Shown here piece by piece: positions 7,406 to 14,452 of a stretch of DNA of 29,445 nt. Where the stretch lies: positions 1 to 29,445 of IMG/VR virus record IMGVR_UViG_3300047462_000762, one strand, 5' to 3'. Numbering within the stretch: the first letter of the stretch is position 1; every line of letters begins with the position of its first letter. This DNA comes from a virus. Under the pieces are notes generated by a model. It was not told where the DNA came from, did not search any database, and was given only the letters and a program-made list of their open reading frames with translations. Made by a program: the position numbers and the translations under genes.

Positions 7406-8737
7406 CTAGGACTCAACAGGCGTATAAGAGCGACGAGGGTCAAATGCGCCAGTGCCGCTCAGCGGGCCATTGAGCCAAGAGATCAGACGCTCACTCACGG
7501 CCCGAGCCACCACATCACCATCAATATGAACATCCGTTTGAATGACCATTGCGGCGCTGGATTCGCTACCGCCATCTGCGGCTGCCGCTTGCTGTGAGCC
7601 ACGGGTTGACAAGCTGCCAGGCGGAGTTTCTCCGGTCTGGTTTCGTGTTGTCTCCACCTGCGGGAAAGTTGGTGGCACAGGATAGGCGGCGGGCGTAGCT
7701 GCCCTCGTGGGCACAGACGCCGACACCCCATCACCGGGTGTTGCGAACGAGACCGACTCTGACATGACACCACCGGCAGCATAGTCCGGCACATCGATGA
7801 CATCATGGGGTGAGACCGACGAGGCTGCCGCGGGCGCGACGAACCCAGAGAGCATGCTGAACGACGGAGACTCGTCTCTCGCCAGACCGAACCGGGCCTC
7901 AACTCGCTCATCTGTATTCTCGGAAGCGCCCGACGCGCCATCGGGCCCACGCCCAGATGTAGCGCTGTCAAACGCCATTTGGTTGCTGGAATTGTTGTCC
8001 CACCGAAGTCTGGCCTGCAGTTCTTTCAACGCCGGATCGCCGCCACCCCCCAGCGCGACAATTCGGCTTGCGGGTACAGGGTGTACCGCCAAGCTCAAAG
8101 CCGCTCGGGTGCTTGGCGGTGCAAACTCCGATCCATCCGCCAGCGCCGCCGTTCGGGCGGGAGCGGCCCCCAAACCCGTGCTATCATCCGTTCGCAGAGT
8201 TGCAGGACCGTCATCAGGAGCGCCCTTCAGGGCCTCGACGAGAGCCGCAAAATCCGCAGCCGTCGGGCTGCTCTGCGTCGAGCCTGCATCACCGCGCTCC
8301 AACACACCTTGGGTGGTCGGCATCATCGACGTACCAGATGACGCATCTTGAGCACCCGTGTGTCCCAACCAGGCGGAGCCACCGTGATCAGGCGCCGAAC
8401 GAGGTTGCGTATCGTCGCGCAGTCGCGACGCGGCGTTCCATGCCAGCCCTGTAGCCTCCGCCCCCGACTGCAACGCGGGAACCGACGACTCTTCGCTGCC
8501 AAAGGAACCTTGAGAGTCACCCTTATACCCTGGGCTTGCCCCGTCATGCTGACCGTTTGAGAGCACCGATGTCGTCAAGTGTTCGGTGAGGGGCCTAGAC
8601 GTATCTCGCATGCGAGATTGGAACTGGGACAAATCTCGATCGAGCGTTGATACTTGTCGCGCCATTTCAGCCAGTGCCGTTCGCGCCTCGTCTGTCTCGA
8701 GCGCAAGCGAGACTCCAATTTCAAAAGCTTCGATCAA
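7406..8737 (-). CDS. Tape-measure protein candidate
   Basis: This 443-aa protein occupies the tape-measure slot between the chaperone block and the gpU/LysM genes. The N-terminal region (EIGVSLALETDEARTALAEMARQVSTLDRDLSQFQSRM) is a helical, coiled-coil-like stretch resembling the start of tape-measure proteins. The middle is low-complexity, Ser/Gly/Pro/Asp-rich and probably disordered. The end is VERLISW-like, with a conserved-looking AMVIQTDVHIDGDVVARAVSERL. It is short for a tape measure: a rough 0.15 nm per residue would predict a tail of about 65 nm. It also lacks the usual hydrophobic segments. Its ATG overlaps the stop of the 140-aa gene (ATGA). A different structural role is possible. 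Confidence 0.5.
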   Translation of the reverse strand: MIEAFEIGVSLALETDEARTALAEMARQVSTLDRDLSQFQSRMRDTSRPLTEHLTTSVLSNGQHDGASPGYKGDSQGSFGSEESSVPALQSGAEATGLAWNAASRLRDDTQPRSAPDHGGSAWLGHTGAQDASSGTSMMPTTQGVLERGDAGSTQSSPTAADFAALVEALKGAPDDGPATLRTDDSTGLGAAPARTAALADGSEFAPPSTRAALSLAVHPVPASRIVALGGGGDPALKELQARLRWDNNSSNQMAFDSATSGRGPDGASGASENTDERVEARFGLARDESPSFSMLSGFVAPAAASSVSPHDVIDVPDYAAGGVMSESVSFATPGDGVSASVPTRAATPAAYPVPPTFPQVETTRNQTGETPPGSLSTRGSQQAAAADGGSESSAAMVIQTDVHIDGDVVARAVSERLISWLNGPLSGTGAFDPRRSYTPVES

Positions 8738-9156
8738 AGTCTGGGCTCCCCAGATTCGAACTGAGCCGCAAGCGTTTCTGTCAGCCGCCGCCGTAGGCCA
8801 TCGATAATGTCCTGAGCGTGGCGCGACGCAACCGGCCCAAACACCCCCGGGGCATCGTGACCACCCAACTCCAAGTGCAGTGCTTGTGAAAGTTCGTGCG
8901 GCGGCAGCGCAGCGTGCCCAAGCCCAACAACAGCACGCTGTTCAACCTTCGTCTCGACCCCTTCTGCCAGCGCATTCAACAAACCTGGCATCATCTCACC
9001 CTCTCGGCGAGCGCGGGCTCGCAACTCCGCTACGACCTCCACACCCAGGCGCTCCGCGGCCTCCGTGAGGGCCGACTCACGCGCAGATTCGATGGCCTCT
9101 GCGGCACGAGCAAACATCGCGGCCAGCTCGCTGAGAGACTTCTTACTCTTGCTCAT
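8734..9156 (-). CDS. Tail protein of unknown function (140 aa)
   Basis: I do not recognise this 140-aa protein. It begins MSKSKKSLSELAAMFARAAEAIE, is helical and charged, and ends GLRRRLTETLAAQF. I chose the ATG at 9156 because the region upstream encodes a convincing protein in another frame (the frameshift extension of the chaperone), whose stop at 9143-9145 overlaps this ATG by a few bases. A longer 181-aa frame starting at 9279 reads as unlikely sequence and is probably a shadow. The gene sits between the chaperone and the tape-measure candidate and overlaps the latter as ATGA. It could be a second tail-assembly factor. Confidence 0.65.
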   Translation of the reverse strand: MSKSKKSLSELAAMFARAAEAIESARESALTEAAERLGVEVVAELRARARREGEMMPGLLNALAEGVETKVEQRAVVGLGHAALPPHELSQALHLELGGHDAPGVFGPVASRHAQDIIDGLRRRLTETLAAQFESGEPRL

Positions 9157-9714
9157 TCCCGTCCCAGCACCGCGTGTTCCAGTCGAACCGCACCCTTGTT
9201 CGAACGCCAACCCCCAGCTCTCCAAAGACAACACACGCCGCCCATTGTTCCGCAGGGTCCATGTCAAATGCTGTGTCATAGGGCACCCCGCACGACACGA
9301 GGTACAAAGCCGCCCGAAAACCGGGGTGCCCTGCTAGTTTTTTGCGCGCGCCAACACCCGCACTTCACGCACCTCGCAGTTGCTGCGATAGCGCACCAGC
9401 AGGGTCCGCATAGCTTCGTCACCAATGCGATCGACCAACGCTTCGACCTGCAGTTTGCTGGTCGGCATGCGAACCGCTTCGCCATCGATATGGGTCACAC
9501 AACATGCTACAGTTGCCCACAACACCCACACTGGATTAAGGCGCGTATCCGCCGCAATACATTCTGAGAGCGCCATCTCCTCACGCACCTTCAGAGCCGG
9601 CTTGGACCGGATGCACCGCCCATCCTCTGTTTCAATTTCAAAATGCCCGTCAGGCAACTCACCGAACGACGTCCGGGCCGCCCCGTCCGACTCGTGAAAC
9701 TTTATGGTTGCCAC
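9143..9714 (-). CDS. Tail assembly chaperone, -1 frameshift product
   Basis: Reading 9714-9337 in the zero frame and then slipping one base back gives about 190 aa: the 126-aa chaperone plus 64 new residues. The -1 frame is open from 9337 to the stop TAA at 9145-9143. It reads LAGHPGFRAALYLVSC, then EQWAACVVFGELGVGV, then RVRFDWNTRC, ending DGNEQE. This looks like real protein, unlike the other frames here. The slippery heptamer A_AAA_AAC, the adjacent stop and the downstream stem-loop all fit programmed frameshifting. Tail-chaperone genes of many tailed phages make a short and a long form in this way. The long form usually binds the tape measure. The level of frameshifting cannot be judged from sequence. 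Confidence 0.8.
9280..9332 (-). other. Stimulatory stem-loop for frameshifting
   Basis: Arms 9322-9332 (CGGGGTGCCCT) and 9280-9290 (AGGGCACCCCG) form a perfect 11-bp, GC-rich stem with a 31-base loop. The 5' arm in the mRNA begins four bases after the slippery heptamer, slightly short but within a usable range. The stem lies wholly in the extension's coding sequence, so it is not a terminator. The loop may add a pseudoknot, which I cannot judge. Confidence 0.75.
9334..9714 (-). CDS. Tail assembly chaperone, zero-frame product
   Basis: This 126-aa protein sits between the tube and tape-measure genes, the place of the tail assembly chaperone (P2 gpE, lambda gpG type), which coats the tape measure during tail assembly. 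No catalytic motif is expected or seen. The sequence is acidic at the N-terminus (HFEIETEDGR) and ends VLARAKN. The start is GTG, overlapping the TAG of the tube gene (TAGTG). The last codons read GCA AAA AAC TAG, a canonical -1 slippery site directly before the stop. The chaperone role is inferred from position and from the frameshift signal. Confidence 0.75.
   Translation of the reverse strand: MATIKFHESDGAARTSFGELPDGHFEIETEDGRCIRSKPALKVREEMALSECIAADTRLNPVWVLWATVACCVTHIDGEAVRMPTSKLQVEALVDRIGDEAMRTLLVRYRSNCEVREVRVLARAKN
9337..9343 (-). other. Programmed -1 frameshift slippery site AAAAAAC
   Basis: On the minus strand the heptamer A_AAA_AAC is in the correct register of the zero frame (GCA AAA AAC) and is followed immediately by TAG. 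This form is the textbook X_XXY_YYZ signal. Its position at the end of the chaperone frame, with an open -1 frame beyond, supports use. Confidence 0.85.
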
Positions 9715-10151
9715 TAGGTCACCTTTCGCCGACGGCTGGCGATGCCCTCAATCTTCATTTTCACCAAATTATCGCCCGACTTTACACCGGCATCGGCCAA
9801 CCGAAGTGCCAGATTTTCATACCGGTATTGCGACGTAGATCCGTCTACCTCAGAAATTGTCTCAGTAACAAGGACGCCCACATAATTCAAACCTGTAAAA
9901 TAACCGTCTTCGACTTTGGCAAAATAGTCATCTACGCTTGATGAACTACGGTCGAGGCTAAAAGAGACATCCCAACCTTGCGGGATTTCCGCAAAATTGT
10001 TGGTTCCATCAAGTCCTATCGACTGCAGTCGCTTCGTTTGCTGTCTTGATTGAAATGCCGTGATGGAGGCCCAAGCCAAGATGCCGCCATTCAACGGGTC
10101 AATTATATCGAGCACCACGTCCCGACCGACGCTTAAACTATTAATCGGCAT
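9714..10151 (-). CDS. Tail tube protein
   Basis: This 145-aa protein is probably the inner tube of the tail, a hexameric stack surrounded by the sheath. Its size is normal, and the short, beta-rich sequence (VGRDVVLDIIDP at the start, FAEIPQGWDVSFSLDRSS in the middle, LVKMKIEGIASRRRKV at the end) fits the tube fold. It lies just after the sheath gene, the standard order. The ATG has a GGGAGGTCTGGA ribosome site. The stop overlaps the GTG of the chaperone gene. Confidence 0.85.
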   Translation of the reverse strand: MPINSLSVGRDVVLDIIDPLNGGILAWASITAFQSRQQTKRLQSIGLDGTNNFAEIPQGWDVSFSLDRSSSSVDDYFAKVEDGYFTGLNYVGVLVTETISEVDGSTSQYRYENLALRLADAGVKSGDNLVKMKIEGIASRRRKVT

Positions 10152-10166
10152 TCCAGACCTCCCTCA

Positions 10167-11939
10167 TTAGGTCGAAAGCGCCGGCGCAACCGCCTGGCGC
10201 GTAATCTGCACACTCTGCCCGCCCTCTATCTCCGTGAGCATGTATTCGATCACGCTTTGATACTGCACTTGCACGTTGGCCTGCATATAACCCAGCGCGA
10301 CGCGGGCTGGCGGGTTGTTGGTGTCATCCAATACAAGGCTATACGGTTGCGTCCCATCGGCGTTGCCAATCAACCCCTGGCCCCAAAGCGTAAAGAAAAA
10401 CTGATCCAGCAACGAAAAAGCTTGTCGGCGCGTTGTTGGGTTCTGCAGCAAGCCCACCACCTGCCCCATCCAGGCATTGATTGTGGCCGCGATGAAATTT
10501 GTCAGTCTCGTATAATTATCGCCGTGTATAACGGCATTGCTTGACGCGTTTCGGCCGATATTTGCCCCAAAATACGCCCCACCTGGACAGGGATTGGCAA
10601 TGACATCAATGCCAGCCGACGCAAGGACCTGCAGGTCCGCCGCGGAATAGACCGCATTCGCGTAGCTTTTCTGCGTGCCAACAACTGCCTGCACCTGCTT
10701 GTTGAGCGTGCTCTGCTCGGGCGATAGGTTGGCAAGTAGGCCCGCGGAAAATGCTTGCGGGGAGACGAGGCGAACATAGCCATTAGTGGTATCATTCCAA
10801 TAAATCCAGTCGCCATGCAACAGCTTCATGGCATAGGTATCGATACCCGCAATGACCTTCGCCGCCGCTGCAGTCGACACGTTTTCCCCGGCAGGAAAAC
10901 AGTCCACCATGTAGATGCCCTCAGATAGTCCAAACGAAACCTGTGTGCTCCAAGATGTGCTGTCGGCACAGTCCGCTAACATCGCGACGGAGGTGCCGGT
11001 TTGCCGCAGAGCATACATGCCCGAACGGGAGGTTCCGTCGGTGCCAAGCAAGCTTGTCGTGTTGACACCGCCCGCGCCATCCGTTCCACCCGTCGCGGTG
11101 TACGTCACGCCGAGTAATGGCCCGCCCGTTCCGCCGGGGTTGCTCGCAATAAATAAGGCCGATGGACCGCGCTGGCTGGTTCCGTTGTTGACAACTGCCG
11201 CAAGGGCAGACCAAATCGCCTGCCCGGTGGGCGCGACGATATTGTCGAACACTTCCGGTGTCCCCAACAGGGGCGAGGTGATCACCAACTTCCACGAATT
11301 GGCCGCACTGCCCGTCTGCAGCGAAGCACTCGCGCCATTCAGCGCCGAACCTGTGTATTTTCCTGTTAGTGTCAGCGCACCAATGGCCACGGATGCGCTC
11401 GCCCCGGACCCACCACCACCCGTAATCGTCAGTATTGGGTTACTGGTATAACCGGCGCCACCAGCGGTCACATATATGTTCGTTATCACGCCGCCGACAG
11501 TTGTACAGGCCGCCGTCGCGCCACTACCGCCGCCACCTGAAATCGTCAGTGTCGGGGCACTGGTATAGCCTGAACCGCCAACAAGGTTATAAAAATTCTC
11601 GACGGAGCCAACGATAATCGACATCGTTGCCGCCACATCGGTGCCATCCGTCACCCGGACGCATTGAAAACTGTTACACCCCTGTTGTACCGCAATCGCA
11701 ACCGCTGTGCCCATGTCGTACGTGCGAGCCTGCAAATTGCCAAAACTTTGCGCATATTCTGAATATGTTCCAATCACTGTCGGGTTGCCCACCGGGCCAA
11801 ATGCGGCAGATCCTACCACCCCCAACGTGCCAGTCGGCACGCCATTGATGTAAGTAATCTGCGGGGGTACGATTGCGACATAATTGCCCGGTACTGACAG
11901 CGCAGCCGTATTGGTGCTGCCGAGTGTAAAAATAGTCAT
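10167..11939 (-). CDS. Contractile tail sheath protein
   Basis: This 590-aa protein is the contractile sheath. The N-terminus (VPGNYVAIVPPQITYINGVPTGTLGVVGSA) and the C-terminal domain (RLTNFIAATINAWMGQVVGLLQNP, then ALGYMQANVQVQYQ and IEYMLTEIEGGQSVQI) are typical of phage sheaths. Near residues 118-187 lies an inserted beta-repeat: GGSGYTSAPTLTI-GGGGSGA, then VGGVITNIYVTAGGAGYTSNPILTI and another GGGGSGA. The same kind of repeat occurs in the tailspike. It probably forms a surface-exposed domain not needed for contraction. The start overlaps the stop of the 55-aa gene upstream (ATGA). Confidence 0.93.
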   Translation of the reverse strand: MTIFTLGSTNTAALSVPGNYVAIVPPQITYINGVPTGTLGVVGSAAFGPVGNPTVIGTYSEYAQSFGNLQARTYDMGTAVAIAVQQGCNSFQCVRVTDGTDVAATMSIIVGSVENFYNLVGGSGYTSAPTLTISGGGGSGATAACTTVGGVITNIYVTAGGAGYTSNPILTITGGGGSGASASVAIGALTLTGKYTGSALNGASASLQTGSAANSWKLVITSPLLGTPEVFDNIVAPTGQAIWSALAAVVNNGTSQRGPSALFIASNPGGTGGPLLGVTYTATGGTDGAGGVNTTSLLGTDGTSRSGMYALRQTGTSVAMLADCADSTSWSTQVSFGLSEGIYMVDCFPAGENVSTAAAAKVIAGIDTYAMKLLHGDWIYWNDTTNGYVRLVSPQAFSAGLLANLSPEQSTLNKQVQAVVGTQKSYANAVYSAADLQVLASAGIDVIANPCPGGAYFGANIGRNASSNAVIHGDNYTRLTNFIAATINAWMGQVVGLLQNPTTRRQAFSLLDQFFFTLWGQGLIGNADGTQPYSLVLDDTNNPPARVALGYMQANVQVQYQSVIEYMLTEIEGGQSVQITRQAVAPALST

Positions 11940-12319: not shown

Positions 12320-14452
12320 CTAAACGATGTTCAAAACGTTACCATTACGCCAAATCGCACCGGTCGTTAACCCGGTGGCAACGCTTGGAAGGTCAACAGC
12401 GAACAAGTTTGCACCGCTACCAGGCGCCAAAAATAATGAGGCACCCGATGGCGAGGTCAGCGTAACAGAACCATCAGATTGGGACTGCAACAGCGCAGCT
12501 GGATAAAAACCTGTAGCAAGCCATACACCGCCCGTCTCTACCAACTCAAGCGCCGTGTCATCAACCAGGATAAGATCGCGTTGCGTAGCATTTGCCTGGG
12601 TCATCAACTGCCCTACTTGCCGCATTGTTACTCCGGCCGTTGCCAGAACTTGCAGTCTACGATTGAGCTGTATTGGATTTCCGACGACAACTGTGGCGGT
12701 GGCACCGCTCCCATCACCCGTTATGACACAAGTCGTGCCAACGGCCGTGTATCCGGCGCCATTATTGGTTACCCGAAAACCTATCACCTGGCCGCCATAG
12801 ATCATAGCCGTCGCTTGCGCACCGGCACCAGCACCCACAATACTGACGGTCGCTTGGGTGTAGCCACTCCCGCCGGATGTGACCGTCAGGAAGCTGACCT
12901 GTCCGCCCGACGTCGCCACGCTTGCCGGTAGCACGCTGTCGATAACCTCGCCGCCCAGTGGAACCCGAACTGTGTCAAACACGTCTGGTATTTCGAGGAC
13001 ACCCTGTGCGTCGGGATTTAGGTCAACGCGATCAGTCCCGTTCCATAGGTTGCCGCGCAAAAAAGTGCCGGCGCTGCGGAGTGCAAGTGCCTGGCTTGGT
13101 GACACGGTGTTGTCGGTCGACAGAAAGTTATTGTCGAGAACTGCGATACCCGCCCCGCCATCGAGCACTGAAATTCCGGTTCCTCCCGCGGCAATAACAA
13201 TGAGGTTATGCTGTATCGTGAGCCCAAACACTGGGGCTGGGAACGGCACCCCGTTGCCATCAGCCTCAATGTCATAGATCGACATTCCAATGCTACAGCC
13301 GCGCAGTTTATTGCCACGAACAGTCACAAGCTGCGAGCCGCCTGGATTTATGCCAATGGTGGCGCCAGTTACACTGTTGTCACAGATATCACAGTCATAG
13401 CAACCGCCGCTATCAATCCCGATATAAACACCAGGAACATTCAACGTGTTTCGGGATATACGGGAGTAGCGGGCCGTGGCGACCAACCCACCCGCCGCCG
13501 TGGCAACCTGCGTAATCTGGTTACCGCTCACATCCAGGTAATCACCATAGGATTGAATGCCATACGAACCATTGGCCCATATGATATTGTCTAAAACAGA
13601 GACAGTCGTAAGCGATGGCTGAGCCAGCGTATAAACGGGTGGGCTGGCGCTTTCTGGGTTGATTGTGCCCAGATTGATGCCATCAAGCGTGTTGTTCCAA
13701 CATCTGTTTCCCTGAATTAGCGCCGTCTGGTTAATATTGGTGGAACTCGGGATGGAAAAAACTGAAACCCCAATTCCGCTACCATCATTGTTGAATGCAC
13801 GACAGCCCGTGATTGAAACGCCGCTCGCCTGAAATATACCCAACCCGTCTGAAGCGTTGCCCGAAAACTCGCAGGTATCGACGCTATACGCCGTACCACC
13901 CGGTGCCGCCGGCGCACCGATGATGGCGAGCCCACGACCCAGAGTGCCACTATTGTTCCGAAACGCGCATGCACTGAACCGAGCAAGCGTGACCGGTGTA
14001 TCGACCAGCACATTCCACGTATTGGCCAGCACACTGGGTGCATTGCAGTCAAAGATAACGCCCTCAACATCAACGATGGCACATTCAAGCCCTATCCATG
14101 CACCTGTCGCGCCGCCTTCCATTCGCAGCAAACGAGATAAACCGGCATAGCCACGAACAAGGAAAAACGGAGCGCTCTGCGTAGACCAAGATCCATTAAC
14201 GATATAGGTTTTCGGTCCGAGGCGAAACGGAATTCCACTTTGCACGGCTTTGGTGAATACACCTGTATCGTCATTACCAAGACCGCACTGGCCAAACCAT
14301 TCAATAAACGGCGCATCAGAAAACGCGCTCGCCAGCGTCCGCTGCGTGCCACCGGCCGGCACGGTCGCCGCCCAATAGGAGATGTCCGAACCAGCACCCG
14401 CCAACGCAAGTTGTTGGGCAAACTGTGCCAGAGGCACCGTTGTGGCGCTCAT
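12320..14452 (-). CDS. Beta-helix tailspike protein
   Basis: This 710-aa protein is probably a receptor-binding tailspike with a right-handed parallel beta-helix. The helix region, about residues 80-500, shows the repeated small turns and Asn-rich steps of this fold: CAFRNNSGTLGRGLAIIG, CEFSGNASDGLGIFQASGVSITGCRAFNNDGSGIGV, IQGNRCWNNTLDGINLG, and SGNQITQVATAAGG. Pectate-lyase-like spikes of this type bind or cleave surface polysaccharide. I cannot see the active-site residues. Residues about 525-590 hold the GGSGYT repeat also found in the sheath. The gene lies between neck genes and the sheath gene, an unusual site for a spike. Its start overlaps the upstream gene as ATGA. Confidence 0.85.
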   Translation of the reverse strand: MSATTVPLAQFAQQLALAGAGSDISYWAATVPAGGTQRTLASAFSDAPFIEWFGQCGLGNDDTGVFTKAVQSGIPFRLGPKTYIVNGSWSTQSAPFFLVRGYAGLSRLLRMEGGATGAWIGLECAIVDVEGVIFDCNAPSVLANTWNVLVDTPVTLARFSACAFRNNSGTLGRGLAIIGAPAAPGGTAYSVDTCEFSGNASDGLGIFQASGVSITGCRAFNNDGSGIGVSVFSIPSSTNINQTALIQGNRCWNNTLDGINLGTINPESASPPVYTLAQPSLTTVSVLDNIIWANGSYGIQSYGDYLDVSGNQITQVATAAGGLVATARYSRISRNTLNVPGVYIGIDSGGCYDCDICDNSVTGATIGINPGGSQLVTVRGNKLRGCSIGMSIYDIEADGNGVPFPAPVFGLTIQHNLIVIAAGGTGISVLDGGAGIAVLDNNFLSTDNTVSPSQALALRSAGTFLRGNLWNGTDRVDLNPDAQGVLEIPDVFDTVRVPLGGEVIDSVLPASVATSGGQVSFLTVTSGGSGYTQATVSIVGAGAGAQATAMIYGGQVIGFRVTNNGAGYTAVGTTCVITGDGSGATATVVVGNPIQLNRRLQVLATAGVTMRQVGQLMTQANATQRDLILVDDTALELVETGGVWLATGFYPAALLQSQSDGSVTLTSPSGASLFLAPGSGANLFAVDLPSVATGLTTGAIWRNGNVLNIV

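Follow-up and report, generated by a model that had tools for sequence, protein, structure and literature searches.

A Probable Tail Assembly Chaperone Gene with a Predicted −1 Frameshift in a Mu-Type Contractile Tail Module

The gene at 9714-9334, on the minus strand of the viral DNA analysed here (the window, a stretch of 29,445 nucleotides), appears to encode the tail assembly chaperone in a Mu-type contractile tail module, as a short form and a −1 frameshift fusion; we place the probability of this reading at about 0.93. That the gene makes two forms of a chaperone by −1 frameshifting had been proposed from the window alone, and the proposal is supported by conservation of the slippery heptamer, the downstream hairpin and the −1 frame in relatives. 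The basis for it here is the anatomy of the site and its conservation, together with compensatory substitutions that keep the hairpin paired and with an extension that is under coding selection and lacks an independent start. As judged from sequence comparison, slippage would take place at A_AAA_AAC, and a chaperone activity is suggested for the products by position and analogy.

Frameshifting is an established source of a short and a long chaperone in lambda, P2, Mu and other phages, and the tail chaperone frameshift is widely conserved despite low sequence similarity (PMC5009743). In lambda, many copies of gpG and few of gpGT are found on the tape measure, and the −1 part binds the tube subunit (PMC5009743).

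Gene context

Genes on the minus strand of the window follow the order terminase, portal, capsid, sheath, tube, chaperone candidate and a 140-aa gene, and continue with a 443-aa putative tape measure, a gene resembling Mu gpN, gpD, V, W, J, I and fibres. The parts of the tail module considered here are as follows.

10167..11939, minus strand: tail sheath protein, 590 aa (PHROG 23 tail sheath, E 9.7e-36)
9714..10151, minus strand: 145-aa putative tail tube protein, so named from its position (matches PHROG 12993, a family of unknown function)
9334..9714, minus strand: zero-frame ORF, short putative chaperone form, 126 aa, GTG start, TAG stop (PHROG 20383)
8734..9156, minus strand: 140-aa gene downstream, probably starting at ATG 9156, within the end of the extension
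7406..8737, minus strand: 443-aa putative tape measure protein, named only from its position

The 9714-9334 gene is set between the putative tube and tape measure genes in a Mu-like gene order, the sheath being assigned by PHROG and the tube and tape measure by position. Family searches gave no match for the putative tape measure (7406-8737). PHROG 20383, a family of unknown function, is the match for the short form in all 42 aligned homologues, and weak matches to PHROG 344 and PHROG 508 (tail assembly chaperone) were given by single short-form members only. Against P2 gpE and Mu gp41, taken as single-sequence targets and hence at low power, the short form gave no significant similarity. The −1 extension is absent from Pfam and PHROGs, and searches by sequence for relatives with a solved structure returned none that was credible. 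We infer the identity of the 9714-9334 product as a tail assembly chaperone from position and frameshift, not from similarity to a characterised chaperone.

Residues 94-187, approximately, of the sheath protein (10167-11939) form a repeat stretch (GGSGYTSAPTLTISGGGGSGATA...) with matches to structural and baseplate families. This repeat is seemingly missing from the 521-aa sheath of one relative (L012), and a similar motif is found in the spike-like protein at 12320-14452.

Relatives and their distribution

The comparison covers 136 distinct homologous sites, drawn from viral contigs, an isolated Komagataeibacter phage and prophages of one alphaproteobacterial family. Searches of viral contigs recovered 7 loci with the short form, 20 with the extension and 54 with a profile of the extension. 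A sample of alphaproteobacterial genomes (n=385) held one match to the extension; within the family to which the matching genome belongs, 299 genomes were sampled and the extension was found in 124. Since the hosts of the phiKX phages are acetic acid bacteria, this family is probably the Acetobacteraceae. Two kinds of match were set aside: those of Pectobacterium phages to the extension fall among replication genes and are due to chance, and the sole genome match obtained from the short form (L009) is an unrelated sequence.

Weak matches to the extension (E 0.04) came from two GenBank phages of Komagataeibacter, phiKX1 and phiKX2, and the same fused protein is matched by phiKX2. The whole arrangement is present in phiKX1 (L030), namely a short form matching PHROG 20383, A_AAA_AAC followed by TGA, the GGCACCCCG/CGGGGTGCC hairpin and the extension. 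Isolated phiKX1 has contractile-tailed particles, and the frameshift goes unmentioned in the paper describing it (PMC8566455). Its chaperone and extension (LC644975.1, 31376-31917) are annotated as separate hypothetical proteins, BCZ76063 and BCZ76064, which are probably one frameshifted gene.

The slip position was read through alignment to the extension, with no search for the heptamer, in the viral loci and in 60 genome loci. A further 32 genome loci were located through a search for heptamers close to the motif; all have one, and they are a weaker test because the heptamer itself was the search target.

The −1 extension

The proposed frameshift site and its product comprise the following features.

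9337..9343, minus strand: slippery heptamer A_AAA_AAC, in phase with ORF 9714-9334
9334..9336, minus strand: zero-frame stop TAG, right after the heptamer; a stop is found there in 117 of 136 distinct sites
9143..9337, minus strand: −1 frame extension, 64 codons (9337-9146) and TAA (9145-9143); predicted fusion about 190 aa
9322..9332, minus strand: putative stimulatory hairpin, 5' arm AGGGCACCCCG, conserved core GGCACCCCG
9280..9290, minus strand: putative stimulatory hairpin, 3' arm CGGGGTGCCCT, conserved core CGGGGTGCC

The open −1 frame of 64 codons described by the sequence-only reading was found and is conserved in relatives. After the slip it reads LAGHPGFRAALYLVSCGVPYDTAFDMDPAEQWAACVVFGELGVGVRTRVRFDWNTRCWDGNEQE, and the predicted peptide across the frameshift junction is ARAKKLAGHPGFR. 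In this frame, dN/dS (Nei-Gojobori) was 0.03, 0.08, 0.14, 0.13 and 0.13 in five clades, the value of 0.03 being that of the window's own clade, versus about 0.9 to >60, mostly well above 1, for the other frames of the same stretch. By this measure the extension is coding, and purifying selection acts on it in each of the five clades. A sequencing error or a pseudogene is ruled out by purifying selection on both reading frames and by the presence of the heptamer at 134 of 136 sites.

The extension might instead be a small protein in its own right, made by coupling or reinitiation after the TAG. It has a separate CDS in the phiKX1 record (BCZ76064), and internal GTG or ATG codons are found within it at some loci. 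However, in 47 of 49 loci there is no ATG, GTG or TTG in the −1 frame upstream of the conserved first residues, and the internal starts vary in position and would remove the conserved L-x-R-H-P motif. Two separate genes would also leave unexplained why the heptamer is retained by co-ordinated change (see below), and we regard this explanation as very improbable.

It had been anticipated that conventional gene calling would give the next gene a false longer start, and indeed the ORF 9279-8734 begins at an ATG inside the extension, a mechanical longer start whose frame is closed by a stop in relatives such as L035. The true start of the downstream gene is probably ATG 9156.

Slippery heptamer

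A_AAA_AAC in the zero frame followed by TAG, as claimed earlier, is present on the minus strand, where the gene ends in GCG CGC GCA AAA AAC TAG, in the phase that a tandem −1 slip needs. Such a heptamer is not informative by itself, as AAAAAAC occurs five times in the window with 4.5 expected by chance. The case rests on relatives because the heptamer alone is expected by chance and the folding of a single sequence is ambiguous.

Conservation of the heptamer in relatives had been set beforehand as a check. A canonical X_XXY_YYZ heptamer is found at the identical position in 134 of 136 distinct homologous sites, as GGGAAAC in 72, AAAAAAC in 59, and AAAAAAT, GGGAAAT and AAAAAAA in one each; in the genome loci read by position alone it is found in 58 of 60. 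The stop immediately 3' of it (117 of 136) may be TGA, TAG or TAA. Chance as the source of heptamer and stem is therefore ruled out by this conservation, together with the shuffles and background counts given below. In two genome loci, L147 and L184, the extension is recognisable and the expected place lacks a canonical heptamer; these copies may have decayed or been misaligned.

In nearly all loci the slip is preceded by GCA when AAA follows and by GCG when GGA follows. Because 134 of 136 sites keep the X_XXY_YYZ pattern, the wobble position just before the slip matches the following codon in every one of them. On this sequence evidence, the tracking of the next codon by a synonymous base is beyond what protein constraint alone explains. 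Changes between the A class and the G class number at least seven on a quick tree of the extension, which is weakly resolved owing to the short alignment.

Runs of A6 are able to promote transcriptional slippage. The −1 product could then arise from slippage of RNA polymerase, not of the ribosome, on the A6 run that the window has, but this is unlikely in the extreme because G_GGA_AAC, with runs no longer than three, is the heptamer at the majority of distinct sites, and both the codon phase and a hairpin at ribosomal spacing are conserved.

Downstream hairpin

The perfect 11-bp stem that had been claimed four bases downstream was found as an inverted repeat, AGGGCACCCCG / CGGGGTGCCCT, with 11 pairs, a 4-nt spacer after the heptamer and a 31-nt loop. 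None of 3000 shuffles gave a perfect stem of at least 11 bp starting within 12 nt of a heptamer, and among 4195 background positions two have one. For the window's single sequence, minimum-energy folding is ambiguous, longer stretches favouring a rival fold, and the hairpin therefore rests on comparative evidence, tested on 48 viral and phage sequences and then on all 136 sites.

In the relatives the stem is kept with compensatory changes. Across the 136 sites the arms pair in 83% of cells, compared with 40-46% when one arm is slid. The pair formed by base 1 of His4 and base 3 of Val18 is C-G in 123 sequences and G-C in 8, and in most of the latter the 5' change alters the amino acid and its 3' partner change is synonymous. 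The Pro5/Gly17 pair is T-A in two sequences and G-C in two. An unbiased scan of all helices between −40 and +126 ranked this hairpin as the top conserved helix. Codon usage in the 3' arm is likewise restricted, with Gly as GGG in 129 and Val as GTG in 126 of the 136 distinct sites; Gly17 of the extension is GGG in 49 of 49 viral and phage sequences, and Gly39 uses all four codons.

No conserved second helix linking the loop to downstream sequence stood out in a search for a pseudoknot; a helix at 55-77 seems to owe most of its pairing to G-U pairs within conserved codons. There was no Rfam match to a known RNA family. A conserved downstream RNA structure, an optional trait among frameshifted tail chaperone genes, is present here.

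That GGGGTG in the 3' arm is kept as a ribosome-binding site for ATG 9279, with the hairpin incidental, is scarcely credible, for although GGGGTG lies just upstream of this ATG in the window and ORF 9279-8734 is open, many relatives have TAC, TTC or TGG in place of the ATG-forming TAT, the 9279 frame is closed in L035, and the 5' arm co-varies with the 3' arm.

Proposed mechanism and comparison with known systems

According to the frameshift model, a majority of ribosomes would terminate at the TAG and release the 126-aa short form. A minority would be held up by the hairpin, and perhaps also by the stop adjoining the slip site, would slip by −1 on A_AAA_AAC and would read 64 more codons to make the fusion of about 190 aa. 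On the pattern of lambda gpG/gpGT, the N-terminal portion common to both forms may coat or hold either the tape measure or a different tail-initiator protein, and the portion encoded in the −1 frame may recruit tube subunits.

The likeness to lambda gpG/gpGT lies in a short form with a rarer −1 fusion and a slip near the end of the short ORF (PMC5009743). Heptamers of the type G_GGA_AAx, also found among the window's relatives, are a further likeness. The heptamer of lambda itself is G_GGA_AAG. Unlike lambda, the tail here is contractile, the stop directly follows the heptamer in most members, and a hairpin of 9-11 bp is conserved.

With P2 gpE/gpE+E' (PMC3931495) the gene shares a contractile tail, a −1 shift, predicted here, and a place between tube and tape measure. 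The P2 slip site, however, is a run of T (T6G), the short forms lack significant similarity, and past the tape measure P2 has genes U and D, where the window has N, D, V, W, J and I. The likeness to Mu gp41 is one of gene order: sheath, tube, chaperone, tape measure, the DNA-circulation protein N and baseplate genes. The shift is −2 in Mu (PMC5009743, PMC2628397) but would be −1 here, and a Mu-type −2 shift into the extension was not found, the conserved extension being in the −1 frame. Only a short L-x-EL-x-x-GDM-x-D motif is common to phiKX1 and Mu gp41.

Relatives without an adjacent tape measure

At most loci the gpN-like gene is preceded by one or two ORFs, including a putative tape measure of about 270-740 aa. 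Both the tape measure ORF and the 140-aa gene are absent between chaperone and gpN-like gene in six relatives (L043, L044, L050, L055, L058 and L061; L044 is the same as L020 and G001), where the gpN-like gene lies 24-44 nt past the extension. G001, at 24.6 kb, encodes a terminase and an otherwise complete contractile tail module, with genes for sheath, tube and baseplate, but a tape measure is not apparent in it. The slip site and the hairpin are preserved in this sub-group, as is selection on the coding of the extension. With the tape measure missing next to the gene, the lambda-type role may not carry over unchanged to these relatives. A very short tail, another chaperone partner or an undetected tape measure elsewhere could each explain this sub-group. 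We tentatively suggest, while thinking it rather unlikely, that the chaperone in these relatives serves another partner (for instance gpN or the tube) and that tail length is set without a classical tape measure. Two other relatives (L048 and L051) have an extra membrane-protein-like ORF of 235-257 aa directly 3' of the extension and before the gpN-like gene.

Implications

The frameshift mechanism is known in other phages and is unannotated in the phage family of the window. Our reading provides a likely function and a corrected gene model for PHROG 20383 and its extension. It also offers a comparative case of a frameshift signal, in which two heptamer types have been swapped at one site and a hairpin has been compensated within coding sequence. 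Finally, the sub-group without an adjacent tape measure turns the identity of the chaperone's partner into a testable question.
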